NCBI GenBank assembly: GCA_947561715.1
Contig: OX387203.1
Span: 12,586,001 to 12,650,000 of the forward strand
DNA length: 64,000 nucleotides
Reading direction: 5' to 3'
From: Ascidia mentula
Lineage: Eukaryota; Chordata; Ascidiacea; Phlebobranchia; Ascidiidae
In this document: positions 17,689-59,209 of the stretch, in pieces
Layout: the number at the start of each line of letters is the position of its first letter
Position numbering within the stretch: the first letter of the stretch is position 1
Translations under genes and position numbers: made by a program
Notes under the pieces: model-generated
What the model was told of the DNA's origin: nothing
Database searches by the model: none
The model's input: only the letters and a program-made list of their open reading frames with translations

Positions 17689-18676
17689 CTTACATTTAAT
17701 GTTCTAACATTGTTAATATGTCATAAAAGTTAAATTTCTTACATTTTTCAAAACTTGTTTCGATACAAACGCAGCTTCATCCAGTTTTACCGTACTGAGG
17801 TAGAAACAGTACATATGTTCCAAATATAAACCAAGCAAAGACATCGAGATAATACTAGAGTAAATCATCGCTCATCATCAAGCACACACAAAACTCTGGG
17901 ATGTGTTTTCGAACTTCCCCATGCAAACCAAATTGTGCGTTTCCACTTGACTAACCTCGCGCTTACGTGATATGCTCTTATCTACATTCCAGCACCAGTT
18001 TTTTAATCACGAAGGTGGTAACCTGTATTTTAAACAAATGTACAACTAGATGGAATCAGGAAAAAAGTGATGCGCATTGAATAACATTCGCACGAATTTA
18101 ACAAATTTATATTTCTATGTTAAATTTGAGGACAAAGTTAACGCAAAACAATTTATCCAAGATGGGTTTTCCCAACCACCTCACTTACGGATAACAATAC
18201 TATTGCACGAACAAAGCTTTGGATTCTTTACATCTTCTTTCAAACCAAGTAGAACGGTGTAACATCGACATTCTCCACATGACTTACAGCGCGTGACGTA
18301 CGCAAAGGTAACAAACGCAACGTCATCTACGCTTCAAAGCATCTCCCCCAGTGTATCCGAGATTTGTTTAACAATGAAGTTTTATTTTCATCTTGTAATA
18401 ATTTACATGTTTGTAGAGTCTAATATGTTCATCTCATTGTGTTAAACCAGATATTAATGATAAAAATTCTGGTCCACATAAACAATGTGTTCAAAATCCT
18501 CAGTTATTTGTTAACAAACCTCCTGCGTTACGCGCAAACAAAAATTCTCATCAAGTGATCCATAGCGTTACGCGCAAGCCAGGAAGCTACCATTTATGCC
18601 AACACTGGCGTTCGTATTTTGCAATGCTCGACCACAATAAATTAGTCTACACTCCAAAATTCTAACGTAACAAGTT

Positions 18677-18773
18677 TGTGTATTATCTCTATGTATATGT
18701 AACATTGCTCGACAAAACGCACGACCTTCTCATAATCTTCCTCTTTCAAATGCTTCAACTTTACGTTTTTCAT
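18677..18773 (-). pseudogene. GNAT N-terminal scrap (U1)
   Basis: From an ATG at 18773 the minus strand reads KLKHLKEEDYEKVVRFVEQC, close to residues 34-53 of the complete GNAT ORFs, then stops about 32 codons in. Every unit has this scrap just 3' of its full GNAT gene (also 30697-30796, 37877-37976, 50888-50987). A second GNAT copy therefore stood in tandem before the unit was amplified. Confidence 0.8.
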
Positions 18774-19039
18774 TGTGTAAAATAATGACAAACTCCACGA
18801 GCAATAATACATACAAAAGTCAAGTCAGACAAGCAATTGAAAAAAAGCATTCTTTACAGAAATTGTGCTGCGCGAATATAAATTCGTTTGGTTCAAAATA
18901 AATTAGGACACATTTACATGATACAACACAAGAAAAGCGTGCTCTACTGCAACTGCTGGCGACTTGACATAATAGCTCACAGTTTTGCTTACAAAAGTAT
19001 TTTATAGTTAATTGCAGCTTCAGTTTCGTTTTCTTGTTC

Positions 19040-19480
19040 ATTCGGAAAAACCTTCATGACCAATCCAGGTGGTTGGAAAAATTCTTGTATTTTACCGACT
19101 TGACCCTTATGTAGCCATTTGAATTGAAAAGGCGGCGGGCGTAATGAGATGTGCAGGATGCCACGATAAAATTATGATTCCAATGAAACAAAAGCTTTTC
19201 TAATTCTTTAAGCAGTCGCCGAGCAAGACCAATATTTCCGTATTCTGGTCTAACACCCATGGGACCCAAATGAACATACGACTTGGGATTCAAGCTTCTA
19301 CAAAATTCTTCCTGTACCTCGTCGTAAAACTTCAATATCCCCACGATTTGTTCGGTCGGGTTGACACCGAGATCCTTTAAAATTTAACTTCAGCGACATA
19401 ATCTTGGTTTATGCGACTCATCAACAATCCAAGAGGCCTTTGTCGATGTACCTTGGCCACAAAATCCCCGTGAAACCGAA
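19040..19480 (-). pseudogene. GNAT N-acetyltransferase pseudogene (U1)
   Basis: The C-terminal half (19344 downward) is recognisable: YVHLGPMGVRPEYGN, then GLARRLLKELEKL and FIVASCTSHYARRLF. A short insertion near 19080 disturbs the tail. The N-terminal part is largely deleted or scrambled upstream of 19390. Compared with the 248-aa copies this is the most diverged member and cannot make a full enzyme. Confidence 0.85.
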
Positions 19481-28429: not shown

Positions 28430-29262
28430 AGACGGATTTCGGAAACGAAACTACCGTGTTGGAGTTTCCAAAGTCCCGTGAAGATAGGAAGGCGTACGAG
28501 ATTATGCGAAGCAACGTGAAGAGCGTGAAAGGTCATTACGAGCTGCCTTTACTTTGGAGAGAGAGAGCTCTGTCTGTTTGCCGGATAACAAGCCCATGGC
28601 TCGATTGGAATACCTGAAGAGACGTTTGGGGAGAGATTATCGACTTCAGGAAAAGTACGTGGCCACTATGCAATCCTATATTGACAATGGGTATGCAAGA
28701 GAAGTACCCAAAGACGAAGTTTATTAACGTGATTATGTTTGTTGGTACTTACCACATCACCCTGTAAACCAGACAAGGTTCGTGTGGTTTTTTATTGTGC
28801 TGCAAAATATAAAGGGGTTGTTTCCCTTAATGATGTAAAATAATTTTGGTGGGTGTTTTAACTCTATTTTGCAGAGAACGGTTCGCATTGGTGTCCGATA
28901 TAAAGGCAATGTTCTACCAGATTCGTGTTACTCGAAAGAATAGAAATGCTTTGAGATTTTTGTGGTGGCCTGATGGTAATTTAGCCAAGGAACCCACGGA
29001 ACACCAAATGACTGTGCATCTGTTTGGGGCGACTTCATCGCCAAGTTGCGCGAGTTTTCGCTTAAAGCAAACGGCTATTGATTTTGGCCACAACTTCGAT
29101 GCACATGCATCCTTCGTGGTAAGAAGAAATTTTTACGTGGATGACTGTTTAAACTCAGTTGCGTCAACAGCGGAAGGAATTCGATTTCATTTAACTAAAT
29201 GGCTCAGCAACAACCCGACGATTCTGTCTGAGATTTCTGAAGAGGAGAGGTCAAAGGTCTAG
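28430..29262 (+). pseudogene. BEL/Pao reverse transcriptase
   Basis: The linker before RT (WETDFGNETT..., SREDRKAYEIM, GHYELPLLW) is recognisable at 28430-28560. The frame at 28846-29262 has RFALVSDIKAMFYQIRV (first catalytic Asp), LFGATSSPSCASFRL and FYVDDCLNS (the YVDD catalytic pair). These are the A, B and C motifs of BEL/Pao RT. Stops and shifts around 28590-28845 break it. Confidence 0.85.
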
Positions 29263-29340
29263 CGGAACAGAAGGTTCAGCGATGACGTCACGGAATGGTG
29301 TGTGCTGGGATTCGGATTTAAGGTCAATTTTCCCGAAACA

Positions 29341-29655
29341 CCGATGACGCATCGAGGGATCCTTTCTGCCTTGGGTTCACTGTACGACTCTGCAGTGGAA
29401 GAATTGGATAAGTCGTTTGCGAAAACTTCATGACCTGCGAATTCCTCGGGTGTTTTAAGCCGTTAGGTTTTAGTGATTTTTGCGGATGCTTTATCCGTTG
29501 CCTACGGAGCCGTGTGTTACCCTGAGGTTAGTCGACTAGAACTTACTGCCGCAGTGTTGTCCGTGAAGCTTGATGTAATGATGCGGCGAGAACTTGAACA
29601 GACTCCACAGCTGTGCTCCAAAGTATTATCATTTCGAAGAAGCGACAAGTTGGAC
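29341..29655 (+). pseudogene. BEL/Pao RNase H start (truncated)
   Basis: The frame from 29473 carries FADALSVAYGAV and SRLELTAAVLSVKLD, the start of the BEL RNase H domain. Two internal deletions relative to copy 4 (47413-47780) remove further blocks. The sequence then passes directly into unit U2. Confidence 0.75.
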
Positions 29656-29742
29656 AGCACCAGTTTTTTAATTCACGAAGGTGGTAACCTGTATTTTAAA
29701 CAAATGTACAACTAGATGGAATCAGGAAAAAAGTGATGCGCA

Positions 29743-29976
29743 TTGAAACATATTCGCACGAATCCAATGCGACGATTTAATTCAATCTTTCTAATTTACA
29801 ATCGCAACAACGTTGGATATTTTTATGTTAAATTCAAGGACAAAGTTAACGCAAAACAAATTATCCAAGATGGGTTTTCCCAACCACGTCACTTACACAG
29901 CTGGATAACAATACTATTGCACGAACAAAGCTTTGGATTCAATGCATCTTCTTTCAAACCAAGTGGAACGGCGTAA
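29743..29976 (+). other. short open frame present in all units, coding doubtful
   Basis: 77 codons with a conserved core (NAKQIIQDGFSQPRHLHSW). Counterparts are 18077-18262, 36988-37197 and 49999-50208. The differences between copies mostly change amino acids (E/K, V/I, S/L, G/R, A/T), unlike those in the GNAT gene. The frame therefore may be open by chance. No domain is recognisable. Confidence 0.3.
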
Positions 29977-30696
29977 CATCGACATTCTCCACATACGCGT
30001 GACGTACGCAAAGGTAACAAACGCAACGTCATCTACGCTTTAAAGCATCTCCCCAGTGTATCCGAGATTTGTTTAACAATGAAGTTTTATTTTCATCTTG
30101 TAATAATTTACATGTTTGTAGAGTCTAATATGTTCATCTCCTTGTGTTAAACCAGATATTAATGATAAAAATTCCGTTCCACATAAACAATGTGTTTAAA
30201 ATCCTCAGTTATTTGTTGACAAACCTCTTCTTTTCGACAAACATATTGTTGATGATCTAGAATGCATTTTTGTTATTAACTACAGGTGACGTGTGTTATT
30301 TTTCAATTAACTTTGTAACGGTGTTATATTTTTTAGTTACCACATTTTTCACGAATAATATTTGGTGAAGAGATCAGACTGCCGTTGATGGAAAGCAGTA
30401 ATTTTTTATTTATCTTCTGTAGTAGGTGGCCTTTAGGTTACGTTGCTGTCGCAACAGGTGCAGAGGAATATTAGGTCACCACATGAAAAATAGTTTTAAG
30501 CCCACATTTGATTCTTTTTGATTAAAGTAATTGTGAAAAAACTACGGCGCAAGCACTACCGCAAAAATTCTTATCGAGTGATCCATAGCGTTACGCGCAA
30601 GCCAGGAAGCCACCATTTATGCCAACACTGGCGTTCGCATTTTGCAATGCTCGACCACAATAAATTAGTCTACACTCCAAAATTCTAACGTAACAA

Positions 30697-30796
30697 GTTT
30701 GTGTATTATCTCTATGTATATGTAACATTGCTCGACAAAACGCACGACCTTCTCATAATCTTCCTCTTTCAAATGCTTCAACTTTACGTTTTTCAT
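30697..30796 (-). pseudogene. GNAT N-terminal scrap (U2)
   Basis: About 33 codons similar to residues 34-66 of the neighbouring full GNAT ORF (VRFVEQCYIYIEIIHKL). It lies about 200 bp beyond the stop codon of that ORF, in the same orientation. It is a remnant of a tandem second copy. Confidence 0.8.
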
Positions 30797-31008
30797 TATG
30801 TAAAACAACGACAAACTCCACGAGCAATAATACACACAAAAGTCAAGTCAGACAAGCAATCGAAAAAAAGCATTCTTTACAGAAACTGTGCTGCGCGATT
30901 ATAAATTCATTCGGTTCAAAATAAATTTGGTAAGATTTGCATGATACAACACAAGAAAAGCGTGCTCTGTAACTGTTGGCGACTTGACATAATAGCTCAC
31001 AGTTTTGC

Positions 31009-31755
31009 TTACACAAGTATTTTATAGTTAATTGCAGCTTCAGTTTCGTTTTCTAGTTCATTCGGAAAAACCTTCATGATCAATCCAGCTGGTTGGAAAT
31101 CCTTGTATTTTACCGACTTGACCCTTATGTAGCCATTTGAATTGAAAAGGCGGCGGGCGTAATGAGATGTGCAGGATGCCACGATAAAATTATGATTCCG
31201 CTGAAACAAAAGCTTTTCTAATTCGTTAAGCAGTCGCCGAGCAATACCCATGTTTCCGTATTCTGGTCTAACACCCATGGGACCCAAATGAACGTACGAC
31301 TTGGGATTCAAGCTCCTACAAAAATCTTCCTGTACCTCGTCGTAAAACTTCAATATCCCCACGATTTGTTCGGTCGGGTTGACACCGAGATCCTTTAAAA
31401 GTGGCACCGATTTAACTTCAGCGACATAATCTTGGTTTACCCGACTCATCAACAATCCAACGAGGCGGCCGCCTTTGTCGAAGTAGCCAACTGCAGTTTT
31501 CTCTTTGAGAGACTTTTTGATGCGAACGTAATGGTAAGGCAAAAATTCCCTGTTGGATATGCCCGCAAGTTTGTGTACTATCTCTATGTGTATGTAACAT
31601 TGCTCGACAAAGCGCACGACCTCCTCATAATCTTCCTCTTCCAAATGCTTTAACGTTAGGTTTTCCATTTGATTTCTGCAATGTCCTTCCAAGTATTGCG
31701 ATGAATTGTTGGCTGCACTTTGGTCGTCCCTGTCTTTTATGCTCATTTCGAACAT
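31009..31755 (-). CDS. GNAT-family N-acetyltransferase, AANAT-like (U2 copy)
   Basis: A 248-aa single-exon ORF with a GNAT fold signature. The N-terminal strand and helix (LTLKHLEEEDYEEVVRFVEQ) cover residues 33-52. The acetyl-CoA pyrophosphate loop, motif A (VRPEYGNMGIARRLL), is at 162-176, followed by FIVASCTSHYARRLF (190-204) and an NGY block near 207-209. This arrangement resembles insect-type arylalkylamine/dopamine N-acetyltransferases, which acetylate amines in the cytosol, but the substrate cannot be read from sequence. No signal peptide or membrane segment is visible. The U3 copy encodes exactly the same protein with six synonymous differences, which suggests selection. Start at 31755 is the first in-frame ATG; Met30 (before ENLTLKHL) is an alternative. 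A 72-codon frame overlaps its start upstream (31961-31743). I saw no clear promoter. Confidence 0.82.
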   Translation of the reverse strand: MFEMSIKDRDDQSAANNSSQYLEGHCRNQMENLTLKHLEEEDYEEVVRFVEQCYIHIEIVHKLAGISNREFLPYHYVRIKKSLKEKTAVGYFDKGGRLVGLLMSRVNQDYVAEVKSVPLLKDLGVNPTEQIVGILKFYDEVQEDFCRSLNPKSYVHLGPMGVRPEYGNMGIARRLLNELEKLLFQRNHNFIVASCTSHYARRLFNSNGYIRVKSVKYKDFQPAGLIMKVFPNELENETEAAINYKILV

Positions 31756-32100
31756 GTGCTGAAAAAGGTTAGCGGATTCTCCGAATGACTGGCTTTGAGA
31801 AATTGCGTAAAATCGGACAGCAACTCATTTTGGAGGGATTGATTGCACTTTTCCTGTTTAACTTCTGCATCATTGCGTTTTTTTTGAGAAAAAAACAAAA
31901 AACATCGACCATTGGCGAAATATAACTGTGGTATAAAAGCTGCGATTAAACGTAACCTCAAGCAATAATTCCAACCAATATTGAGTTAAATCCAACACCA
32001 CGACATTATCGCAATGTAAACCAAATAAAATCGATTCTTCCCATTTCTTGGTTTTAATACGTTGATCATAATAACCGGTAGCTGTAATATTTCATGCAAT

Positions 32101-32241
32101 GGCATGATTAGCTGGATCTTTCCACTGCGCAGGTCCTTGCTTGGCGATCACAGCTAACGTATCGCGATCCTGAGGTTTGTAGGCTTCGCAGCCTAGCTGG
32201 ATCAGCCACTTTTTCCTGACATGTCGGAGCAAGATTTAAAA
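32101..32241 (-). other. unassigned coding-like fragment
   Basis: The minus strand is open for about 46 codons ending in a TGA, with a balanced composition and the block KKWLIQLGCEAYKPQD followed by QWKDPANHAIA. It recurs at about 39290-39420 and 52250-52380. It looks like an exon piece, but I do not recognise the family and no adjoining exon is certain. Confidence 0.35.
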
Positions 32242-32640
32242 AATCAAGCTCCCGGCGAGGTTTTTTCTAACAACCGGTAGCTGTGTAGATGTTTTTTCAT
32301 TTTTCAAAAGAAATCTAGTTGAATAAGCAATCTCAGCAGAGACTGGTCATGTTTTTAATACCAAAAAAAACAAAGAATTCAAGAATTATTTTGTAAATAT
32401 TCGATGTGGATTCTAACGTTTACTGAATAAAGGATCTGAATCACAAACCCCTCTGCAAGCAAGATAAGTCTGAAGTGTGTAAGCTGCAGACAGATGGCCA
32501 CTGTTTCGACCTATAATGTGTCGTCAGTGCAACTGGTGTGACTTTCAGACGACTTTGCTGACCAAACGGCCAAGCAAAGACTTCCGCCTTGTGGTGACTG
32601 TATTGCCGTAATTGCTACAAGCGGTAAGGGCTCACATTAG

Positions 32641-32838
32641 CCCTGGACGGCACGATTACTGAGGCTCCAGTTACTATAAAATTACCGTCATCCGTTGGGT
32701 ACCAAGAAAAGCCTGGTTTGTCAAGCAAACTATACCCAAAAGGTTTTTTAGCTAATCAGACTGATCTTGTATCCAAAGCAAGTCCTTTTTGTGCGTGTGA
32801 TCGATATGGAATTTGGCTGGTCCCCTAACCCTGTGGTC
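32641..32838 (+). other. unassigned coding-like fragment
   Basis: A plus-strand frame of about 66 codons (PSSVGYQEKPGLSSKLYPKG, then ANQTDLVSKASPFCACDRYG) ends at a TAA. It is preserved in U4 (52801-52998) and partly in U4' (from 56030), and deleted from U3. No ATG or domain is recognised. It could be an exon of an old gene carried in the unit. Confidence 0.35.
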
Positions 32839-33024
32839 CCAACAAATTATTATGCTCCATCACGCCCACCACTTTTCCCTATTTTTAACGCATGATTAAG
32901 TTGCAAAATAAGGAAGTCGTCCCTTTGTTTTTTTTCGACAAACACGCTATCGAATTCAACGAATGCTCCGCAACAAATTCCAAGTACTACTTATGGGAGG
33001 GATTCCCATCGGACAAAAAGCAAG

Positions 33025-33220
33025 GTAGGGGAGACCGGGGATAGCTCGGACTTTTTCAAAAAATTGCTCATATTTTTTTTAAATTTTGAACCACATTCTT
33101 AAATTAGTAAAGCATTGCTCAAAAACCAAAAGGTTTTTCGCTCGTTTTAGCTCAAGAAAAATGATCATTCAGCCCATTTTTGAAACAGGTCTCAAATGTC
33201 CGAAGTCACCCCGGTACCGG
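33025..33220. mobile_element. small MITE with ACCGGGG-type inverted ends (U2)
   Basis: The left end gaccggggatagctcggac and the right end gtccgaagtcaccccggta are inverted repeats with a few mismatches, enclosing about 150 bp of AT-rich DNA. Counterparts lie at 53185-53380 (U4) and 56375-56570 (U4'). The family is not identified and no target duplication is clear. Confidence 0.65.
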
Positions 33221-33339
33221 GATAAGTGTCTTAACAATTCCTAATTTTGACGTAAAATACTTGGTCCGAGGTCATATGCAAATTTTATAGATGTCTAAAT
33301 CTAAATTACCCAAGTTAATTATAAAAGTGGTAGAGATCG

Positions 33340-34668
33340 CCTACGTATATATCAAACCTAATGATAAGAGTATGTACCAGTTCCCTTTGCACTAATGTGA
33401 CGAACCTACGGTAGCTATTGCTGGCTGACGATTTCTGATTCTTACCGCGCCGCTGAGACTGTGAATAACAAGGAAGCCTTCCCTTTCCCCGAAATCTGAT
33501 CCGCGCACAACAGACAGACAACACGGTAGAATTCTGCGAAAGCTCGACACAAATCCCAAGGTAGGTCATTACTTTCGAATCGGACAAAACAACGTCAATA
33601 ATACTAGGAAAGGTAAATGAGACAAACTATTGGGATGGGATCATATGAAACTATAACGGCCTTTGTGCTAATTTAAGCGAACCTCCGGTATCGATTGGCA
33701 ATGAATAAAACTTGTAATAAAAGTGCGATCTCTGATCACTCGTCTAGAGCAGGGTTCTTCAACGGGAGCGATTTCAGGTTTTTGTAGATTTGGGGGGCGA
33801 ATATATAATGAAGAAACAAGCCTCGGATTGAAGTCAGCAGATTTTATTGTAAAAAATCGATTTCGCTTATGTAAGCATCTGCAAAAATTACGTAGTAGTT
33901 ATAAAAGCAACAAAAAAACACCCTTGAGAGTCTTTTCTTTACGCTATCACCTAAAGCTCACACTGTGAACTACAGTGTGGTAACGAACCTATAGTAGGCG
34001 ATAGCGGAGATAAGGAAACAAAACACGCTCACACGTGACCGCAAATCATGAAGCACAAACGAGTGTGCCAGAAGCAATGAATGCGACTGAAAATGGGAGA
34101 TAATTAGTAGAAGGTAAAATCGAATGCAATAAAATTATCTAATTCTTGGTAAAATCATTTTCTGGATGTTTATAGATGCTTGCGTCATATCAGCCATTTG
34201 GCCTCACAAACATGTAAAGACTTTGCCGCCGGTTGTTGAACAAATGTCACCGAGAAATAGGTTTCGATGGGTGGGCGCCGTGATGGTGAAGAAGGGCCGT
34301 TTTTGTCATTTTTACCAATATCGCTGGTTGCCCTGTTCCAGTCGGACCGGTGTTGCGTCCAACGGGTGGAAAACTTATTTTTTGTCTGGCCGACATATTG
34401 TTCTTTGTATGTGCGGCACGTTGCTACATATATACCAAAATTGAAGCAAGTTAGGTGTTGTGTCAGTTTGTACACCTTTCCAGTTATGGTTTCCTTGTGG
34501 TCGCCATGATGTCCGTATACCGCGCATCTCTCGCATGGGTAGCTGCCCGCAGTATTGTTGCTGTGAGGCGGGTTCGTAACCATATATGGGCATGGCACCA
34601 TAGAAATCATAACACAAATATGAAAACGTACTTATTAATTGTGTGCGTGAAACCTTGGTGTTGACCAA
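33340..34668 (-). mobile_element. Penelope-like element, 5'-truncated tail (U2)
   Basis: On the minus strand a GIY-YIG endonuclease (34610-34185) is followed by a 3' pseudo-LTR (about 34000-33340). The pseudo-LTR retains stem II and GAAA of a hammerhead at 33850-33880, but the CUGANGA strand is gone through a 9-nt deletion relative to U1. No RT domain remains. Truncation at the 5' side is typical of PLE insertion. Confidence 0.8.
34185..34610 (-). pseudogene. PLE GIY-YIG endonuclease domain (U2)
   Basis: A Cys pair (YPCERCAVYGHHG) precedes the catalytic module FGIYVATC...EQYVGQTKNKFSTRWTQH. The latter has the GIY, YVG, catalytic Arg and His positions of the GIY-YIG nuclease fold. In PLEs this domain nicks target DNA for reverse transcription. 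A shift near 34280 changes the C-terminal frame, so the domain is probably incomplete, and the RT that should precede it is absent. Confidence 0.8.
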
Positions 34669-34921
34669 CCTATTGTGTAAGAAAAGGGCTGTTAAGCACC
34701 TCCTTAATATAGTTATGAATTGCTTTTACAAATTTAAATTATTGTGAGAAGAGGACAGGCGCTTGGAGAATTTCCCATATCCCGCTAAGCGCCACGTTCA
34801 ATATTTAACAATTTAAGGTTTTTGATTGCTTAAGTTCAGGTAGCTATAACTTTTTATCTACAAACGCTAGACTAAAAATTAAAACACAAAAATCATATGA
34901 AAATTAATACTCTACACCAGT

Positions 34922-34964
34922 GGTTCTTAACCTTTTTTCTATCACGCCCCTTTTAGTAACGGAC
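34922..34964. mobile_element. hAT MITE left end, truncated at unit junction
   Basis: Begins caccagtggttcttaacc like the full MITE at 54973-55154, preceded by the same ctctacac flank. It is cut off after gtaacgg, where BEL copy 3 begins. Confidence 0.8.
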
Positions 34965-34965
34965 T

Positions 34966-34992
34966 CTGTCACGCGTTCGGCGTGACAGAGTG
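34966..34992. repeat. perfect palindrome at U2/BEL junction
   Basis: The arms ctctgtcacg and cgtgacagag are exact inverses around a 7-nt centre (cgttcgg). In the otherwise identical region at 47985 only the right arm exists. The left arm was therefore added when this junction formed. Confidence 0.9.
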
Positions 34993-36268
34993 CCCATGGA
35001 GAAATGTGGCGTATCGGTAGAGGAATTGGATGCTGCCGAATTGGCGTTGATTAAGCACGTACAACGAGGACACTTCGTCGCCGAGTTTGTCGCTTTGGAA
35101 AAGGGCTCACATGCGAAGTCCTCTTTAAAACGACACATGTTTAAATTGAGTCCTGTAGTTGCCGATTCTGTTCTACGTGTCGGGGGTCGGTTGGAAAGGG
35201 CGTCAATCTCAAACGATGCCAAACATCCGATAATTTTGCCGCATTTATCGCATTTTACTGATTTAATTATTGCAAGACATCATCGCCTTGTCGGACATTC
35301 TGGAATGGGACATACCTGGTCGTCGTTGCGCCAGAGGTTTTGGATAATCAAAGGTGGCGTTGCCGTGCGCCGAGTGATCGGAAATTGCTTGTTCTGCAAA
35401 GGACGAAATGCTTCCGTTGGTGTGCAGATAATGGCCGATCTTCCTTCGGCAAGACTTCATCCCGACGAGCCGCCGTTTGCACATGTCGGCGTTAACTATT
35501 TTGGTCCCTTTCCGGTTAAGCAGGGCATCGTCAAACGGTACGGGGCAGTGTTTACCTGTCTAACAGTACGGGCTGTTCATATTGAAGTTGCTCACAGACT
35601 CTTTTATCGACGCACTTCGTCAATTTGTTGGTCGTCGTGGAAATCCAGTTCACATTTACTCCGACAACCGAACGAATTTCGTTGGTGCGGAACGGATTTT
35701 GAGCGAATCGTTGCAATCGTGGAACTGTTCGCAGATCGATAAGTACCTGAAGCAGAGAAACATTCGTTGGTCGTTCAATCCTCGGACCGCCAGTCATATG
35801 GGTGGTGCGTGGGAAAGAATGGTCCATCCGGCGAATCCTGCCGTCTTTGATCACTCAGAGTCCATAATTAATTCTCTTGTATCGGTGACGTTTGACCCTC
35901 GAGATGACGAACCTATCACACCCAACCATCTATTGATAATGAGATCGAATGCGAACCCTCCCGGTTTGTTCGACAAAAAGGACTGCTACGTTCGGCGCCG
36001 CTGGGCGCAGGTCCAATACTTGGCGAACCAATTCTGGATTCGCTGGGTACGAGAATATTTACCAAATATCATCTCCCGACAGAAGTGGTTTCAGAAGAAG
36101 AGAGATCTTACACAGCCACGGTCTAATTGATTGATGGGTCGAGTTGCGGATACGTTCCCCGATAAAACCGGAACTGTGCGCTCGGTGCTTGTGCAAACCC
36201 GACACAACCGTGTCAAACGACCGATTGCAAAACTATGTTTGATTGTCGCCGCGAATAGCGATGTTTAA
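34990..36268 (+). pseudogene. BEL/Pao integrase (copy 3)
   Basis: The zinc-binding module HHRLVGHSGMGH...NCLFCKGRNA precedes the catalytic core. The first catalytic Asp should lie in GVDYFGP; here the protein reads HVGVNYFGPF, an Asp-to-Asn change. The second (YSDNRTNFVGAE) and the Glu block (ASHMGGAWERMV) are intact. The core is split between two frames with a shift near 35590. The C-terminal frame (GRVADTFPDKTGTVRSV, ending KLCLIVAANSDV at 36268) is again shifted. The missing Asp and shifts make it inactive. Confidence 0.87.
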
Positions 36269-36269
36269 T

Positions 36270-36503
36270 GTGTTGTGCTGAACTATTTCGTGATTCGTTT
36301 TTTTTTTTTGTTGAACGTTCTATGTTTGTGCTACGAAATGTATTTCCTGGGTCATCTTGGCTGTGTTGTGATCGCTGATTTTTTACAGAAAACCGTCGTC
36401 AGTTGTGATAATACACCTGTGAAAGAAAACGGCGTGTTTCAACGAAGTATAGGCTACCCTTTGTGCGACTTGGCCCTCGCAGGCCTGACGTTCAGAGTCT
36501 ACA
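36270..36503 (+). repeat. BEL/Pao 3' LTR (copy 3)
   Basis: Starts near the TG at 36270, right after the pol stop, and ends gttcagagtctaca. It shares ggctgtgttgtgatcgctga with the 17.3-kb LTR. Its left part differs from the 5' LTR of copy 2, so the boundary is approximate. Confidence 0.65.
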
Positions 36504-37876
36504 CTTATATTTAATGTTCTAACATTGTTAATATGTCATAAAAGTTAAAATTCTTCCATTTTTCTAAACTTGTTTCGATACAAACGCAGCTTCATCCAGT
36601 TTTACCGTACTGAGGTAGAAACAGTACATATGTTCGAAATTCAAACCAAGCAAAGGCATCGAGATAATAAATCTAATACAAGACTCGGAAGGTCGGATCC
36701 ACACGCGCTTTGCTACTAGAGTAAATCATCGCTCATTAACAAACACACAAAACTCTGGGATGTGTGTTCGAACTTCCCCATGTAAACCAAATTGTGCGTT
36801 TCCACCTCGCGTTTACGTGATATGCTCTTATCTACATTCCAGAACCAGTTTTTTAATCACGAAGGTGGTAACCTGTATTTTAAACAAATGTACAACTAGA
36901 TGGAATTAGGAAAAAAGTGATGCGCATTGAAAAATATTCGCACGAATTTAACATACCTATGATCACCTTTTGTGTTGAGATTTTCCAATGCGACGATTTA
37001 ATTTAATCTTTCTAATTTACAATCGCAACAACGTTGGATATTTTTATGTTAAATTCGAGGACAAAATTAACGCAAAACAAATTATCCAAGATGGGTTTTC
37101 CCAACCACGTCACTTACACAGCTGGATAACAATACTATTGCACGAACAAAGCTTTGGATTCAATGCATCTTCTTTCAAACCAAGTAGAACGACGTAACAT
37201 CGACATTCTCCATATGACTAACAGCGCGTGACGTACGCATCCGAGATTTGTTTAACAATGAAGTTTTATATTTATCTTGTAATAATTTACATGTTTGTAG
37301 AGTCTAATATGTTCATCTCCTTGTGTTAAACCAGATATTAATGATAAAAATTCCGTTCCACATAAACAATGGGTTCAAAATCCTCAGTTATTTGTTGACA
37401 AACCTCTTCTTTTCGACAAACATATTGTTGATGATCTAGAATTCATTTTTGTTATTAACTGCAGGTGACGAGTGTTATTTTTCAATTAACTTTGTAACGG
37501 TGTTTTATTTTTCAGTTACCACATTTTTCACGAATAATATTTGGTGAAGAGATCAGACTGCCGTTGATGGAAAGCAGTAATTTTTTATTTATCTTCTGTA
37601 GTAGGTGGCCTTTAGGTTACGTTGCTGTCGCAACAGGTGCAGAGGAATATTAGGTCACCACATGAAAAATAGTTTTAAGCCCACATTAGATTCTTTTTGA
37701 TTAAATTAATAGTAAAAAAAACTACGGCGCAAGCACTACCGCAAAAATTCTCATCGAGTGATCCATAGCGTTACGCGCAAGCCAGGAAGCCACCATTTAT
37801 GCCAACACTGGCGTTCGTATTTTGCAATGCTCGACCACAATAAATTAGTCTACACTCCAAAATTCTAACGTAACAA

Positions 37877-37976
37877 GTTTGTGTATTATCTCTATGTATA
37901 TGTAACATTGCTCGACAAAACGCACGACCTTCTCATAATCTTCCTCTTTCAAATGCTTCAACTTTACGTTTTTCAT
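37877..37976 (-). pseudogene. GNAT N-terminal scrap (U3)
   Basis: Same remnant as in the other units: starts with an ATG and covers the DYEKVVRFVEQC region, then stops about 33 codons in. Confidence 0.8.
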
Positions 37977-38188
37977 TATGTAAAACAACGACAAACTCCA
38001 CGAGCAATAATACATACAAAAGTCAAGTCAGACAAGCAATCGAAAAAAAGCATTCTTTACAGAAACTGTGCTTCGCGATTATAAATTCATTCGGTTCAAA
38101 ATAAATTAGGAAAGATTTGCATGATACAACACAAGAAAAGCGTGCTCTGTAACTGTTGGCGACTTGACATAATAGCTCACAGTTTTGC

Positions 38189-38935
38189 TTACACAAGTAT
38201 TTTATAGTTAATTGCAGCTTCAGTTTCGTTTTCTAGTTCATTCGGAAAAACCTTCATGATCAATCCAGCTGGTTGGAAATCCTTGTATTTTACCGACTTG
38301 ACCCTTATGTAGCCATTTGAATTGAAAAGGCGTCGGGCGTAATGAGAAGTGCAGGATGCCACGATAAAATTATGATTCCGCTGAAACAAAAGCTTTTCTA
38401 ATTCGTTAAGCAGTCGCCGAGCAATACCCATATTTCCGTATTCTGGTCTAACACCCATGGGACCCAAATGAACGTACGACTTGGGATTCAAGCTCCTACA
38501 AAAATCTTCCTGTACCTCGTCGTAAAACTTCAATATCCCCACGATTTGTTCGGTCGGGTTGACACCGAGATCCTTTAAAAGTGGCACCGATTTAACTTCA
38601 GCGACATAATCTTGGTTTACCCGACTCATCAACAATCCAACGAGGCGGCCGCCTTTGTCGAAGTAGCCAACTGCAGTTTTCTCTTTCAGAGACTTCTTGA
38701 TGCGAACGTAATGGTAAGGCAAAAATTCCCTGTTGGATATGCCCGCAAGTTTGTGTACTATCTCTATGTGTATGTAACATTGCTCGACAAAACGCACGAC
38801 CTCCTCATAATCTTCCTCTTCCAAATGCTTTAACGTTAGGTTTTCCATTTGATTTCTGCAATGTCCTTCCAAGTATTGCGATGAATTGTTGGCTGCACTT
38901 TGGTCGTCCCTGTCTTTTATGCTCATTTCGAACAT
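38189..38935 (-). CDS. GNAT-family N-acetyltransferase, AANAT-like (U3 copy)
   Basis: A 248-aa single-exon ORF, identical in protein to the U2 copy. Motif A (residues 162-176, PEYGNMGIARRLL) and the SCTSHYARRLF block are intact, so acetyl-CoA binding is expected. The six DNA differences from the U2 copy are all in silent positions: changes near 38332, 38347, 38432, 38687, 38696 and 38791. About 7.2 kb separates the two starts. The flanking DNA is also highly similar, so transcription signals would be shared. Expression and substrate are unknown; arylalkylamine acetylation is an inference from family resemblance. Confidence 0.82.
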   Translation of the reverse strand: MFEMSIKDRDDQSAANNSSQYLEGHCRNQMENLTLKHLEEEDYEEVVRFVEQCYIHIEIVHKLAGISNREFLPYHYVRIKKSLKEKTAVGYFDKGGRLVGLLMSRVNQDYVAEVKSVPLLKDLGVNPTEQIVGILKFYDEVQEDFCRSLNPKSYVHLGPMGVRPEYGNMGIARRLLNELEKLLFQRNHNFIVASCTSHYARRLFNSNGYIRVKSVKYKDFQPAGLIMKVFPNELENETEAAINYKILV

Positions 38936-39829
38936 GTGCTGAAAAAGGTTAGCGGATTCTCCGAATGACTGGCTTTGAGAAATTGCGTGAAATCGGATAG
39001 CAACTCATTTTGAAGGGATTGATTGCACTTTTCCTGTTTAACTTCTGCATCATTGCGTTTTTTTTGAGAAAAAAACAAAAAACATCGACCATTGGCGAAA
39101 TATAACTGTGGTATAAAAGCTGCGATTAAACGTAACCTCAAGCAATAATTCCAACCAATATTGAGTTAAATCCAACACCACGACATTATCGCAATGTAAA
39201 CCAAATAAAATCGATTCTTCCCATTTCTTGGTTTTAATACGTTGATGATAATAACCGGTAGCTGTAATATTTCATGCAATGGCATGATTAGCAGGATCTT
39301 CCCACTGCGCAGGTCCTTGCTTGGCGATCACAGCTAACGTATCGCGATCCTGAGGTTTGTAGGCTTCGCAGCCTAGCTGGATCAGCCACTTTTTCCTGAC
39401 ATGTCGGAGCAAGATTTAAAAAATCAAGCTCCCGGCGAGGTTTTTTCTAACAACCGGTAGCTGTGTAGATGTATTTTCATTTTTCAAAAGAAATCTAGTT
39501 GAATAAGCAGTCTCGGCAGAGACTGGTCATGTTTTTAATACCAAAAAAAACAAAGAATTCAAGAATTATTTTGTAAATATTCGATGTGGATTCTAACGTT
39601 TACTGAATAAAGGATCTGAATCACAAACCCCTCTGCAAGCAAGATAAGTCTGAAGTGTGTAAGCTGCAGACAGATGGCCACTGTTTCGTCAGTGCAACTG
39701 GTGTGACTTTCAGACGACTTTGCTGACCAAACGGCCAAGCAAAGACCTCCGCCTTGTGGTGACTGTATTGCCGTAATTGCTACAAGCGGTAAGGGCTCAC
39801 ATTAGCCCAAGGTAGGTCACTACTTTCTA

Positions 39830-40937
39830 ATCGGACAAAACAACGTCAATAATACTAGGAAAGGTAAATGAGACAAACTATTGGGACGGGGTCATATGAA
39901 ACTATAACGGCCTTTGTGCTAATTTAAGCGAACCTCCGGTATCGATTGGCAATGAATAAAACTTGTAATAAAAGTGCAATCTCTGATCACTCGTCTAGAG
40001 CAGGGTTCTTCAACGGGAGCGATTTCAGGTTTTTGTAGATTTGGGTGGCGAATATATAATGAAGAAACAAGCCTCGGATTGAAGTCAGCAGATTTTATTG
40101 TAAAAAATCGATTTCGCTTATGTAAGCATCTGCCAAAATTACGTAGTAGTAATAAAAGCAACAAAAAAACACCCTTGAGAGTCTTTTCTTTACGCTATCA
40201 CCTAAAGCTCACACTGTGAACTACAGTGTGGTAACGAACCTATAGTAGGCGATAGCGGAGATAAGGAAACAAAACACGCTCACACGTGACCGCAAAAACA
40301 TGAAGCACAAACGAGCGTGCCAGAAGCAATGAATGCGACTGCAAATGGGAAAGAATTAGTAAAAGGTAAAATCGAATGCAATAAAATTATCTAATTCTCG
40401 GAAAAATAATTTTTTAGATGTTTACAGATGCTTGCGTCATATGAGCCATTTGGCCTCACAAACATGTGAAGACTTTGCCGCCGGTTGTTGAACAAATGTC
40501 ACTGAGAAACAGGTTTCGATCGCCGAGCTGGTATACCGTGTTTGGAAGTGTGATGGTGAGGAAGGGCCGTTTTGTCATTTTTACCAATATCGCTGGTTGC
40601 CCTGTTCCAGTTGGACCGGTGTTGCGTCCAACGGGTGGAAAACTTATATTTTGTCTGGCCGACATATTGTTCTTTGTATGTGCGGCACGTTGCTACATAT
40701 ATACCAAAATTGAAGCAAGTTAGGTGTTGTGTCAGTTTGTACACCTTTCCAGTTATGGTTTCCTTGTGGTCGCCATGATGTCCGTATACCGCGCATCTCT
40801 CGCATGGGTAGCTGCCCGCAGTATTGTTGCTGTGAGGCGGGTTCGTAACCATATATGGGCATGGCACCATAGAAATCGTAACACAAATATGAAACCGTAC
40901 TTATTAATTGTGTGCGTGAAACCTTGGTGTTGACCAA
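39830..40937 (-). mobile_element. Penelope-like element tail (U3)
   Basis: The endonuclease region is at 40870-40499, upstream of a 3' pseudo-LTR. The hammerhead remnant at 40110-40140 keeps GAAA and stem II but lacks CUGANGA, as in U2. The upstream pseudo-LTR border is cut by the U3 deletion. Confidence 0.75.
40499..40870 (-). pseudogene. PLE GIY-YIG endonuclease domain (U3)
   Basis: Contains the YPCERC Cys pair, FGIYVATC, EQYVGQTKYKFSTRWTQH and a longer C-terminal part (SDIGKNDKTALPHHHTSKHG) than the U2 frame, with a His-rich stretch. It is the most complete of the window's endonuclease copies, but still lacks an RT and shifts frame at its end. Confidence 0.8.
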
Positions 40938-41647
40938 CCTATTGTGTAAGAAAAGTGCTGTTAAGCACCTCCTTAATATAGTTATAAATTGCTTTTACAA
41001 ATTGAAATTATTGTGAGAAGAGGACAGGCGTTTGGAGAATTTCCCATATCCTGCTAAGCGCCACGTTCAATATTTAACAATTTAAGGTTTTTGATTGCTT
41101 AAGTTCAGGTAGCTATAGCTTTTTATCCACAAACGCTAGACTAAAAATTAAAACACAAAAATCATATGAAAATTAATACTCTACACAATCATCACTTTTC
41201 CAGTTCGAGTAGTTATACCTAAAAATACAACCATCCCTACTAAAACAGCTTCCAAGCCATAGTACCCTGTATAAAAATGTCCATAACTCCCGAAATTGTG
41301 CGAATTTTGAAAGAAATAATTCGACTTTTTTTTCTGAATCAGTGTGAACACCAAGACGCAATGAAGCGAAAAAACTGGATCGCTGCATTTGATATTTTTG
41401 AGCGACGGTGCTGTCTAGTAAACTGACATTTTAGGTAGTTTTTTGGGTATAACCTACTTATACTGTTAGTAATTGCTTGTAAAAGGGCTTGTAAGCTTTG
41501 TTACACAGCTCAGGCGTTTGCTAACTCATAGCAGATGAATTTGACAACACCTCTAAAAAAATTATTTTCTTTGTTTTTTTTTGTTTTCAACTGGTAAGTG
41601 TATGTCAGCAAGTTGATGAAAAAGAGTGCATAACATGAATATATAGT

Positions 41648-42560
41648 GATAATTGAATAGACAAGTCTTCTACCAGTGCATGTAAACCTTTTCCACAACA
41701 TGAAACAGACAATGTATAAAAAAGACAAGGAAAGAATCAGCTGTATACATTTGAAACTACCCTAGTTACTGGGTGACGCCCACACCCACATGTGTTTGAT
41801 TCTTGAACAAATTGCATGAATATGCTTCCATATATGATGCTTTGACAGCAAATTATGCATCAGAGATGTGACTGTGACTTGACCAAATCATCATCATGGA
41901 ACTTTTTGTGGATATACCCTTCCGAGAATAATTGTTGATTGTTATGCAAAGAAAAGAATGTGAATAATTAAACAAACAAGCCAACTACCAGTGTATAAGC
42001 CTTAGTCACAACGTTACATAGACACTCTGGAAAAAAGACAAGGAAAAAATCAGTTGTATGAAATTGAAGCGACCCTATTTACTGAGTGACGCCCACAGCC
42101 ACACCCACATGTGTTTCATTCTTGAACAAATTGCATGAATATGCTTCCATATATGATGCTTTGACAGCAAATTATGCATCAGAGATGTGACTGTGACATG
42201 ACCAAATCATCATCATGGAACTTTTTGTGGATATACCCTTCCGAGAACAATTGGCGATTGCTATGCAAAGAAAAGAATGTGAATAATTGAATAAACAAGC
42301 CAACTACCAGTGTATAAGCCTTAGTCACAACATTACATAGACACTCTGGAAAAAAGACAAGGAAAATATCAGTTGTATGAAATTGAAGCGACCCTATTTA
42401 CTGAGTGACGCCCACAGCCACACCCACATGTGTTTGATTCTTGAACAAATTGCATGAATATGCTTCCATGACCAAATCATCATCATGGAACTTTTGGATA
42501 TACCCTTCCGAAAACCATTGGCGATTGTTATGCTGAGGAAAGAATTACTCAATTGTCTAT
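41648..42560. repeat. tandem repeat, about 316-bp monomer, three units (U3)
   Basis: The block gtgacgccca recurs at 41773, 42086 and 42405 (periods 313 and 319). Each monomer contains tgaacaaattgcatgaat, atcatcatcatggaac and an actaccagtg start. The first monomer is the most diverged and the last is shortened. It could be a local satellite. Confidence 0.9.
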
Positions 42561-47977: not shown

Positions 47978-49278
47978 TTGCGCGTTCGGCGTGACAGAGT
48001 GCCCATGGAGAAATGTGGCGTATCGGTAGAGGAATTGGATGCTGCCGAATTGGCGTTGATTAAGCACGTACAACGAGGACACTTCGTCGCCGAGTTTGCC
48101 GCTTTGGAAAAGGGCTCACATGCGAAGTCCTCTTTAAAACGACACATGTTTAAATTGAATCCTGTAGTTGTCGATTCTGTTCTACGTGTCGGGGGGTCGG
48201 TTGGAAAGGGCGTCAATCTCAAACGATGCCAAACATCCGATAATTTTGCCGCATTTATCGCATTTTACTGATTTAATTATTGCAAGACATCATCGCCTTG
48301 TCGGACATTCTGGAATGGGACATACCTGGTCGTCGTTGCGCCAGAGGTTTTGGATAATCAAAGGTGGCGTTGCCGTGCGCCGAGTGATCGGAAATTGTTT
48401 GTTCTGCAAAGGACGAAATGCTTCCGTTGGTGTGCAGATAATGGCCGATCTTCCTTCGGCAAGACTTCATCCCGACGAGCCGCCGTTTGCACATGTCGGC
48501 GTTAACTATTTTGGTCCCTTTCCGGTTAAGCAGGGCATCGTCAAACGGTACGGGGCAGTGTTTACCTGTCTAACAGTACGGGCTGTTCATATTGAAGTTG
48601 CTCACAGACTCTTTTATCGACGCACTTCGTCAATTTGTTGGTCGTCGTGGAAATCCAGTTCACATTTACTCCGACAACCGAACGAATTTCGTTGGTGCGG
48701 AACGGATTTTGAGCGAATCGTTGCAATCGTGGAACTGTTCGCAGATCGATAAGTACCTGAAGCAGAGAAACATTCGTTGGTCGTTCAATCCTCGGACCGC
48801 CAGTCATATGGGTGGTGCGTGGGAAAGAATGGTCCATCCGGCGAATCCTGCCGTCTTTGATCACTCAGAGTCCATAATTAATTCTCTTGTATCGGTGACG
48901 TTTGACCCTCGAGATGACGAACCTATCACACCCAACCATCTATTGATAATGAGATCGAATGCGAACCCTCCCGGTTTGTTCGACAAAAAGGACTGCTACG
49001 TTCGGCGCCGCTGGGCGCAGGTCCAATACTTGGCGAACCAATTCTGGATTCGCTGGGTACGAGAATATTTACCAAATATCATCTCCCGACAGAAGTGGTT
49101 TCAGAAGAAGAGAGATCTTACACAGCCACGGTCTAATTGATTGATGGGTCGAGTTGCGGATACGTTCCCCGATAAAACCGGAACTGTGCGCTCGGTGCTT
49201 GTGCAAACCCGACACAACCGTGTCAAACGACCGATTGCAAAACTATGTTTGATTGTCGCCGCGAATAGCGATGTTTAA
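47978..49278 (+). pseudogene. BEL/Pao integrase (copy 4)
   Basis: Same layout as copy 3: zinc module (HHRLVGHSGMGH), VGVNYFGPF with Asn in place of the first catalytic Asp, IYSDNRTNFVGAE and MGGAWERMV. A one-base insertion near 48192 (a g run) shifts frame before the zinc module, absent in copy 3. The shared shift near 48600 and the C-terminal shift near 49140 are also present. Not functional. Confidence 0.85.
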
Positions 49279-50887
49279 TGTGTTGTGCTGAACTATTTCG
49301 TGATTCGTTTTTTTTTTGTTGTTGAACGTTCTATGTTTGTGCTACGAAATGTATTTCCTGGGTCATCTTGGCTGTGTTGTGATCGCTGATTTTTTACAGA
49401 AAACCGTCGTCAGTTGTGATAATACACCTGTGAAAGAAAACGGCGTGTTTCAACGAAGTATAGGCTACCCTTTGTGCGACTTGGCCCTCGCAGGCCTGAC
49501 GTTCAGAGTCTACACTTATATTTAATGTTCTAACATTGTTAATATGTCATAAAAGTTAAAATTCTTCCATTTTTCTAAACTTGTTTCGATACAAACGCAG
49601 CTTCATCCAGTTTTACCGTACTGAGGTAGAAACAGTACATATGTTCGAAATTCAAACCAAGCAAAGGCATCGAGATAATAAATCTAATACAAGACTCGGA
49701 AGGTCGGATCCACACGCGCTTTGCTACTAGAGTAAATCATCGCTCATTAACAAACACACAAAACTCTGGGATGTGTGTTCGAACTTCCCCATGTAAACCA
49801 AATTGTGCGTTTCCACCTCGCGTTTACGTGATATGCTCTTATCTACATTCCAGAACCAGTTTTTTAATCACGAAGGTGGTAACCTGTATTTTAAACAAAT
49901 GTACAACTAGATGGAATTAGGAAAAAAGTGATGCGCATTGAAAAATATTCGCACGAATTTAACATACCTATGATCACCTTTTGTGTTGAGATTTTCCAAT
50001 GCGACGATTTAATTTAATCTTTCTAATTTACAATCGCAACAACGTTGGATATTTTTATGTTAAATTCGAGGACAAAATTAACGCAAAACAAATTATCCAA
50101 GATGGGTTTTCCCAACCACGTCACTTACACAGCTGGATAACAATACTATTGCACGAACAAAGCTTTGGATTCAATGCATCTTCTTTCAAACCAAGTAGAA
50201 CGACGTAACATCGACATTCTCCATATGACTAACAGCGCGTGACGTACGCATCCGAGATTTGTTTAACAATGAAGTTTTATATTTATCTTGTAATAATTTA
50301 CATGTTTGTAGAGTCTAATATGTTCATCTCCTTGTGTTAAACCAGATATTAATGATAAAAATTCCGTTCCACATAAACAATGGGTTCAAAATCCTCAGTT
50401 ATTTGTTGACAAACCTCTTCTTTTCGACAAACATATTGTTGATGATCTAGAATTCATTTTTGTTATTAACTGCAGGTGACGAGTGTTATTTTTCAATTAA
50501 CTTTGTAACGGTGTTTTATTTTTCAGTTACCACATTTTTCACGAATAATATTTGGTGAAGAGATCAGACTGCCGTTGATGGAAAGCAGTAATTTTTTATT
50601 TATCTTCTGTAGTAGGTGGCCTTTAGGTTACGTTGCTGTCGCAACAGGTGCAGAGGAATATTAGGTCACCACATGAAAAATAGTTTTAAGCCCACATTAG
50701 ATTCTTTTTGATTAAATTAATAGTAAAAAAAACTACGGCGCAAGCACTACCGCAAAAATTCTCATCGAGTGATCCATAGCGTTACGCGCAAGCCAGGAAG
50801 CCACCATTTATGCCAACACTGGCGTTCGTATTTTGCAATGCTCGACCACAATAAATTAGTCTACACTCCAAAATTCTAACGTAACAA

Positions 50888-50987
50888 GTTTGTGTATTAT
50901 CTCTATGTATATGTAACATTGCTCGACAAAACGCAGGACCTTCTCATAATCTTCCTCTTTCAAATGCTTCAACTTTACGTTTTTCAT
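50888..50987 (-). pseudogene. GNAT N-terminal scrap (U4)
   Basis: Same 5' remnant of a tandem GNAT copy as in the other units, on the minus strand, ATG at 50987. Confidence 0.8.
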
Positions 50988-51202
50988 TATGTAAAACAAC
51001 GACAAACTCCACGAGCAATAATACATACAAAAGTCAAGTCAGACAAGCAATCGAAAAAAAGCATTCTTTACAGAAACTGTGCTGCGCGATTATAAATTCA
51101 TTCGGTTCAAAATAAATTAGGAAAGATTTGCATGATACAACACAAGAAAAGCGTGCTCTACTGTAACTGTTGGCGACTTGACATAATAGCTCACAGTTTT
51201 GC

Positions 51203-51914
51203 TTACACAAGTATTTTATAGTTAATTGCAGCTTCAGTTTCGTTTTCTAGTTCATTCGGAAAAACCTTCATGACCAATCCAGGTGGTTGGAAATCCTTGT
51301 ATTTTACCGACTTAACCCTTGTGTAACCATTTGAATTGAAAAGGCGTCGGGCGTAATGAGATGTGCAGGATGCCACGATAAAATTATGATTCCGCTGAAA
51401 CAAAAGCTTTATTTCCGTATTCTGGTCTAACACCCATGGGACCCAAATGAACGTACGACTTGGGATTCAAGCTCCTACAAAAATCTTCCTGTACCTCGTC
51501 GTAAAACTTCAATATCCCCACGATTTGTTCGGTCGGGTTGACACCGAGATCCTTTAAAAGTGGCACCGATTTAACTTCAGCGACATAATCTTGGTTTACC
51601 CGACTCATCAACAATCCAACGAGGCGGCCGCCTTTGTCGAAGTACCCAACTGCAGTTTTCTCTTTGAGAGACTTCTTGATGCGAGCGTAATGGTAAGGCA
51701 AAAATTCCCTGTTGGATATGCCCGCAAGTTTGTGTACTATCTCTATGTGTATGTAACATTGCTCGACAAAGCGCACGACCTCCTCATAATCTTCCTCTTC
51801 CAAATGCTTTAACGTTAGGTTTTCCATTTGATTTCTGCAATGTCCTTCCAAGTATTGCGATGAATTGTTGGCTGCACTTTGGTCGTCCCTGTCTTTTATG
51901 CTCATTTCGAACAT
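51203..51914 (-). pseudogene. GNAT N-acetyltransferase pseudogene (U4)
   Basis: The start and first 168 residues match the U2 and U3 copies (one change, V77A). A 35-nt deletion at about 51409 then removes the rest of motif A (NMGIARRLLNELE) and shifts the frame. The C-terminal part remains readable from 51433 in another frame, with additional substitutions (PPGLVMKVF for PAGLIMKVF). Loss of the acetyl-CoA loop and the frameshift make it a pseudogene. Its N-terminal near-identity shows the loss is recent. Confidence 0.88.
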
Positions 51915-53184
51915 GTGCTGAAAAAGGTTAGCGGATTCTCCGAATGACTGGCTTTGAGAAATTGCGTGAAATCGGATAGCAACTCATTTTGAAGGGATTG
52001 ATTGCACTTTTCCTGTTTAACTTCTGCATCATTGCGTTTTTTTTTGAGAAAAAAACAAAAAACATCGACCATTGGCGAAATATAACTGTGGTATAAAAGC
52101 TGCGATTAAACGTAACCTCAAGCAATAATTCCAACCAATATTGAGTTAAATCCAACACCACGACATTATCGCAATGTAAACCAAATAAAATCGATTCTTC
52201 CCATTTCTTGGTTTTAATACGTTGATCATAATAACCGGTAGCTGTAATATTTCATGCAACGGCATGATTAGCAGGATCTTCCCACTGCGCAGGTCCTTGC
52301 TTGGCGATCACAGCTAACGTATCGCGATCCTGAGGTTTGTAGGCTTCGCAGCCTAGCTGGATCAGCCACTTTTTCCTGACATGTCGGAGCAAGATTTAAA
52401 AAATCAAGCTCCCGGCGAGGTTTTTTCTAACAACCGGTAGCTGTGTAGATGTTTTTTCATTTTTCAAAAGAAATCTAGTTGAATAAGCAATCTCAGCAGA
52501 GACTGGTCATGTTTTTTATACCAAAAAAAACAAAGAATTCAAGAATTATTTTGTAAATATTCGATGTGGATTCTAACGTTTACTGAATAAAGGATCTGAA
52601 TCACAAACCCCTCTGCAAGCAAGATAAGTCTGAAGTGTGTAAGCTGCAGACAGATGGCCACTATTTCGACCTATAATGTGTCGTCAGTGCAACTGGTGTG
52701 ACTTTCAGACGACTTTGCTGACCAAACGGCCAAGCAAAGACTTCCGCCTTGTGGTGACTGTATTGCCGTAATTGCTACAAGCGGTAAGGGCTCACATTAG
52801 CCCTGGACGGCACGATTACTGAGGCTCCAGTTACTATAAAATTACCGTCATCCGTTGGGTACCAAGAAAAGCCTGGTTTGTCAAGCAGACTATACCCGAA
52901 AGTTTTTTTAGCTAATCAGACTGATCTTGTATCCAAAGCAAGTCCTTTTTGTGCGTGTGATCGATATGGAATTTGGCTGGTCCCCTAACCCTGTGGTCCC
53001 AACAAATTATTATGCTCCATCACGCCCACCACTTTTCCCAATTTTTAACGCACGACTAAGTTGCAAAATAAGGAAGTCGTCCCTTTGTTTTTTTCGACAA
53101 ACACGCTATCGAATTCAACGAATGCTCCGCAACAAATTCCAAGTACTACTTATGGGCGGGATTCCCATCGGACAAAAAGCAAGG

Positions 53185-53380
53185 TAGGGGAGACCGGGGA
53201 TAGCTCGGACTTTTTTAAAAAATTGCTTATATTTTTTTTAAATTATGAACCACATTCTTAAATTAGTAAAGCATTGCTTAAAAACCAAAAGGTTTTTCGC
53301 TCGTTTTAGCTCACTAAAAATGATCATTCAGCCCATTTTTGAAACAGGTCTCAAATGTCCGAAGTCACCCCGGTACCGGG
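53185..53380. mobile_element. small MITE with ACCGGGG-type inverted ends (U4)
   Basis: Counterpart of 33025-33220, with the same ends and the same position in the unit. Confidence 0.65.
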
Positions 53381-53499
53381 ATAAGTGTCTTAACAATTCC
53401 TGATTTTGACGTAAAATACTTGGTCCGAGGTCATATGCAAATTTTATAGATAATTTATGCCACAATTTGTTTATTCTTGGAAAGTGGTAGAGATCGCCT

Positions 53500-56025: not shown

Positions 56026-56374
56026 TGAAAAAAATACCGTCATCCGTTGGGTACCAAGAAAAGCCTGGTTTATCAAACAAACTATACCCGAAAGGTTTTT
56101 TAGCTAATCAGACTGATCTTGTATCCAAAGCAAGTCCTTTTTGTGCGTGTGATCGATATGGAATTTGGCTGGTCCCCTAACCCTGTGGTCCCAACAAATT
56201 ATTATGCTCCACGCCCACCACTTTTCCCAATTTTTAACGCACGATTAAGTTGCAAAATAAGGAAGTCGTCCCTTTGTTTTTTTTCGACAAACACGCTATC
56301 GAATTCAACGAATGCTCCGCAACAAATTCCAAGTACTACTTATGGGCGGGATTCCCATCGGACAAAAAGCAAGG

Positions 56375-56570
56375 TAGGGGAGACCGGGGATAGCTCGGAC
56401 TTTTTCAAAAAATTGCTCATATTTTTTTTAAATTATGAACCACATTCTTAAATTAGTAAAGCATTGCTCAAAAACCAAAAGGTTTTTCGCTCGTTTTAGC
56501 TCACTAAAAATGATCATTCAACCCATTTTTGAAACAGGTCTCAAATGTCCGAAGTCACCCCGGTACCGGG
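56375..56570. mobile_element. small MITE with ACCGGGG-type inverted ends (U4')
   Basis: Third copy of the element at 33025 and 53185, at the same position of the unit. Confidence 0.65.
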
Positions 56571-59203: not shown

Positions 59204-59209
59204 GGGGCA

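Follow-up and report, generated by a model that had tools for sequence, protein, structure and literature searches.

A GNAT acetyltransferase gene is present in two intact copies, separated by six silent differences, in a 64,000-nucleotide stretch of the Ascidia mentula genome (the window), and we think it likely that this is a host AANAT-like gene in a repeatedly duplicated segment, with selection acting on its lineage and exchange between copies later reshuffling the block. Several nearby duplications would have multiplied the gene within repeat-rich surroundings, after which two copies (A and B) would have remained intact and two (C and D) decayed. Purifying selection on the lineage, seen through an older copy on another contig (C1), would have purged amino-acid changes, and subsequent exchange (non-allelic gene conversion or unequal crossing-over) would have rearranged the block, so that the six silent differences may be variants from functional ancestors and not only new mutations in A or B. 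That conversion caused the mosaic, that the gene functions today and that the enzyme is active are all things that we infer from the sequence. The A/B pair is a case of ordinary gene family duplication and decay in a recently duplicated, reshuffled stretch; its silent-only difference may be taken as a real sign that the gene was kept working, and exchange between copies appears to be a serious factor.

Two open copies and their silent differences

Copy A occupies 31009..31755 on the minus strand as an open reading frame of 248 codons, and copy B lies 7180 bases away at 38189..38935, also on the minus strand; the plus strand, translated in a single frame, has stops in both. Over 747 sites the two copies show six differences (codons 48, 80, 83, 168, 196, and 201, found in A at window positions 31612, 31516, 31507, 31252, 31168, and 31153), each difference being third-position and silent, and their 248-residue translations are identical. 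The coordinates, the shared strand and the differences given in the earlier note were all reproduced. The note had described two GNAT genes of 248 amino acids, of which the length of the open reading frame stands, but the window holds four GNAT copies (A, B, C, and D), with a short GNAT fragment downstream of each, and the true protein start is probably Met30, giving 219 residues rather than 248 (31009-31668 in A). The first 29 codons are probably non-coding because the C1 copy is frame-shifted upstream of Met30 and because Met stands at this column in 17 of 20 aligned paralogue loci, a count that is partly built in, as the script took the nearest Met (21 loci were passed to it; the 20 with a hit were aligned, and L042 gave none). 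Many GNAT matches across the genome start at residues 26 to 30.

The claim that such a pattern is improbable by chance is borne out, as six of six silent changes would arise without selection with a probability of 0.9e-4 to 4.4e-4 (modelled as random point mutations within the 219 codons, with transitions weighted 1 to 4), that is, about 1e-4 to 4e-4. Counted by sites, silent differences affect 6 of 150 and replacement differences 0 of 507 (Fisher P 1.3e-4). The earlier note had held that a silent-only pattern in the non-coding flanks would speak against selection. Read in coding phase, the upstream flank shows no such lean, with 5, 2, and 3 A-B differences in phases 1, 2, and 3, but the downstream flank leans to the same phase as the gene (6, 12, and 19, P 0.03, with indels shifting the phase in this flank). 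When the indel-side cluster is removed from the downstream differences (window 29655-31008), the counts become 3, 9, and 17 (P 0.006), and none of the downstream tests reaches the strictness of six silent changes out of six. This phase-3 lean makes the phase argument for the six sites somewhat weaker.

Decayed copies, duplicated units, and constraint on the lineage

Copy C (51203..51827, minus strand, from the Met30 equivalent) carries a 35-bp frame-shifting deletion and replacement changes, and copy D (18992..19439, minus strand) has a broken frame, replacement changes and a 5' part that is lost or unalignable. The short fragment downstream of A, which belongs to a further GNAT copy and resembles residues 30-66, lies at 30686..30796 on the minus strand and has counterparts at 37866-37976 (B), 50877-50987 (C), and 18663-18773 (D). 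The duplicated unit around A covers 29655..32643 with its partner at 36840-39808, and when stretched to 33508, it finds a partner at 49851-53665. Another unit, comprising B and a retroelement piece, covers 34972..39808 and has its partner at 47981-52803, with 24 substitutions of which none falls in 35389-37924, where there is one 1-base indel. The retroelement piece (34990..36130, plus strand) has integrase H2C2 and DUF5641 matches, and its open reading frame at 34990-35742 served as a control. Among other repeats, the minus strand at 58331-60651 carries retroelement open frames, split among several reading frames, that match integrase, RNase H, and reverse transcriptase; a piece of a satellite that is arrayed at 366-base spacing on several contigs occupies 32081-32263 in the upstream flank of the gene; and two arrays of a 313-319-base tandem repeat (41649-42469 and 62388-63323) form part of a duplicated stretch.

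A mobile element carrying the GNAT gene as cargo is a further conceivable reading, with observations on both sides. The upstream DNA at 32678-34965 has at least 58 matches (40 of 567 candidates scored), and among the matches listed, most of those outside the window hit its inner part, about 1121-1887 of 2288. Cargo would fit the recurrence of its gene-nearest part at GNAT-bearing loci, namely near D, near the fragment at 13.83 Mb of contig C71 and near the C1 copy, but the same part is also present at 56030-58321 without a GNAT copy, and the inverted repeats of at least 20 bases in 29000-42000 amount to two T-rich pairs. The C71 fragment itself lies near 13.836 Mb, about 8 kb from an open frame that matches NACHT and the NOD2 winged helix (13825967-13827346; L032:967-2346). 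It is highly improbable that the pair is an assembly artefact in which the two haplotypes of one locus were laid in tandem, for which the largely collinear course of 29655-34917 and 36840-41186 and an A-B divergence of 1 to 3%, within the allelic range of many invertebrates, would speak; against this stand four window GNAT copies with different neighbours, deletions and breakpoints.

The gene on C1 is an intact fifth copy of 223 residues (7556665-7557321; L016 6666-7322) with 93% protein identity. Compared with A, it has 34 silent differences over 149 sites and 18 replacement differences over 508 sites (Fisher P 6e-12), which correspond to dS 0.27, dN 0.036, and a dN/dS of 0.13, a value well below 1 as the earlier note had anticipated for a codon-based comparison. 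The coding sequence including the stop differs at 53 of 660 bases with zero gaps, whereas over the 900 bases that follow upstream the count is 172 of 579 aligned positions and 379 gap columns, and over the downstream stretch it is 141 of 363 and 55 gap columns, the flank figures (about 30 to 39% differences) containing some misalignment; by BLAST, identity is about 81% over the best 1.36-kb stretch, gene included. The 87 bases directly before Met30 differ as little as the coding sequence (9 of 87, with 16 gap columns), which counts against the favoured explanation. Contig C1 carries TTAGGG arrays close to its end (among the matches listed), which, together with the NACHT frame on C71, would argue against a typical arthropod.

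The private changes of D comprise two silent and seven replacement changes by manual count, against six and none for A/B (Fisher P 0.007), those of C two silent (codons 90 and 212) and two replacement (77 and 210), a count that omits codon 208, where C equals C1, and the retroelement pair in the B-C duplicate differs by one silent and three replacement changes. A and B thus differ in behaviour from their decayed neighbours C and D. The proposal of a host-type GNAT under purifying selection is supported at the level of the lineage, with the ratio of 0.13 and with D and the retroelement pair decaying as expected of controls, and the C1 copy is better evidence of it than the A-B pair.

The genome of the species (195.8 Mb, 79 contigs) contains 91 six-frame GNAT matches (122 candidates scored), of which many are clustered and some are fragments. 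A young tandem GNAT array with a unit of 9482 bases lies on contig C70 at 13086751-13108069 (G000), with matches at 13088452, 13097934, and 13107416. The C70 paralogues L006-L008 differ by 1 to 3 silent and 2 to 7 replacement changes per pair, and L012-L014 by 0 silent and 2 to 5 replacement changes per pair; other GNAT pairs, with larger dS, have dN/dS values of 0.20 to 0.51. Since the young C70 pairs differ mainly by replacement, strict constraint on young copies is not general in this GNAT family. The weak constraint seen in L012-L014, together with the small number of differences (six) and the fact that the pattern was picked after reading 64 kb, would suit chance, that is, young unselected duplicates whose silent-only differences were singled out as striking. 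We hold this to be quite improbable in view of the probability given above for six silent changes, the open frames of A and B over 219 codons where C and D have none, and the low dN/dS against C1.

Mosaic relations of copies A, B, and C

Counted only where A, B, and C all align, the downstream 1314 bases contain 36 sites that set A apart, one that sets B apart, and one that sets C apart; the corresponding numbers are 5, 5, and 3 in the upstream 873 bases and 3, 3, and 7 in 622 bases of coding sequence. Taken together, the upstream and coding parts (1495 bases) have 8, 8, and 10 such sites, and the contrast in A-apart sites with the downstream part has a Fisher P of 6e-8, or 9e-7 without the 8 of 36 downstream sites that lie at most 15 bases beside an indel and may represent one event or misalignment. 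Over the 3' flank, copy B is nearly the same as copy C, with A diverging by 2.8%, whereas the three lie at similar distances from one another in the gene block. A stretch of 2536 bases has 0 substitutions between B and C (and one 1-base indel), the 1884 bases after it have 20, and the 4.8-kb duplicate as a whole has 24. An unrestricted maximum chi-square test for a B-C breakpoint was not significant (535/5000), and three tests performed after it were significant: the same statistic with breakpoints confined to the inner 80% (18/20000), a longest-run test in which the substitution-free run was matched in 0 of 20000 random placements, and a split of the substitutions where the gene ends (Fisher P 3.7e-5).

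When C1 and D serve as outgroups, two of the six A/B sites are changes private to A (codons 80 and 168) and one is private to B (codon 48); at codons 83 and 196, A has the state of C and B that of C1, contrary to the pairing of B with C in the 3' flank; and at codon 201, B has the state of C. A further codon, 226, unites A and B. At three of the six sites, the state that seems to be derived also occurs in C. The genealogy changes in a tract-like manner along the copies, as gene conversion would produce, in a form that does not tell conversion, crossing-over and allelic recombination apart. Copies A, B, and C look like mosaics, for which the simplest account would be exchange between copies, with the variants filtered by selection beforehand. 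The earlier note had read the six sites as if mutation and selection had left an undisturbed trace in two copies independent of each other, which is not supported, as the block is mosaic and C shares derived states; it had also dismissed gene conversion on the ground that it does not favour silent sites, but a tract from a functional copy would be expected to carry mostly silent differences. On this account, about three private changes are left for judging whether A and B were selected separately. As copy-private and shared states are mixed, the six sites would show constraint on the lineage and not present selection on both copies, and the A-B pattern does not prove that both are functional now.

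It seems unlikely that A and B have each been under independent purifying selection since the duplication, for dosage and with no exchange. The six of six silent differences would agree with this, as would a replacement rate of 0/507 where the upstream flank has 10/873 (Fisher P 0.017), but the genealogy is mosaic along the block, few changes are private to either copy, and the silent rate of 6/150, although above the upstream flank (10/873, P 0.02), is not above the downstream flank (37/1314, P 0.44). The preferred explanation, lineage selection followed by exchange, is itself weakened by the small number of conflicting sites in the coding sequence, which could be repeated mutation, by the scarcity of copy-private silent changes in A and B, by the indel-side sites and the unrestricted test described above, and by the similar mosaic that recombination among alleles or a false assembly duplication could yield. 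A further suggestion, doubtful though possible, is that exchange repeatedly restores two working AANAT-like copies, with each other or copies not seen here as the source, in a decaying repeat-rich segment, so that selection and conversion together would keep a dosage pair alive. For the reading of such segments, divergence confined to silent sites can mark off an open gene from the dead copies beside it, and dN/dS can be misleading for tandem copies that exchange sequence.

Enzyme class and comparison with known systems

The protein is a member of the GNAT acetyltransferase superfamily by its match to Pfam PF00583 (36.6 bits, curated cut-off 20.7, E 6.2e-9), and the intact gene enlarges an already large family of AANAT-like enzymes. 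Among solved structures, the protein is closest to agmatine, polyamine, and dopamine/arylalkylamine N-acetyltransferases (E 2e-6 to 7e-4 for the best ones); nine distinct chains were found at E up to 0.001, of which seven are arylalkylamine or dopamine, one agmatine, and one polyamine N-acetyltransferase, all of remote similarity. Of 28 matches to solved structures with E up to 1, none bears the name serotonin N-acetyltransferase, a protein search of a large collection, perhaps poor in animal proteins, gave 171 candidates with 0 at E 0.001 or better, and the NCBIfam profile matches were all under their cut-offs. The C1 copy has Arg-Asn in the active-site motif where A, B, C, and D have His-Tyr, and this exchange may change substrate use.

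The solved structures closest to the copy A protein, at remote similarity, are insect AANATs (PDB 3te4, dopamine, and 7ciu, agmatine N-acetyltransferase), presumably both from Drosophila, and CTSHY of copy A matches CSSHY of 3te4. The catalytic triad of insect AANATs is given as Glu47, Ser182, and Ser186 in PMC7427786. Read off the alignment, with a 15-position shift between the chain and the published numbering deduced from the motif, the triad is incompletely retained in copy A, where the Glu47 equivalent is kept as Glu58 but Ser182 is changed to Thr196 and Ser186 to Ala200; Arg153 is changed to Gly167 and Asp46 to Ile57. Because the Glu is retained but the two Ser are Thr and Ala, the enzyme of copies A and B is, as judged from this alignment, an AANAT-like GNAT and not an insect AANAT. 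The AANAT-like label of the earlier note agrees with the sequence relation to the insect enzymes, but the incomplete triad leaves its placement loose.

Tandem duplicates can be reshuffled by gene conversion, and the GNAT copies resemble such duplicates in the mosaic relations of neighbouring copies and in the identical proteins; the present case differs in that conversion is proposed from sequence and that two of the four window copies have decayed. For AANATs of non-vertebrate type, a lineage-specific expansion of seven intronless genes is described for amphioxus in PMC2897805, which also lists regulatory flanks, a histidine pair, and a proline-containing loop as marks of the vertebrate type. 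The likeness to that expansion is that many of the matches in the A. mentula genome span almost the entire protein in one frame, and the difference is one of number, with seven genes in amphioxus against 91 six-frame matches, some of them fragments, in this one genome.
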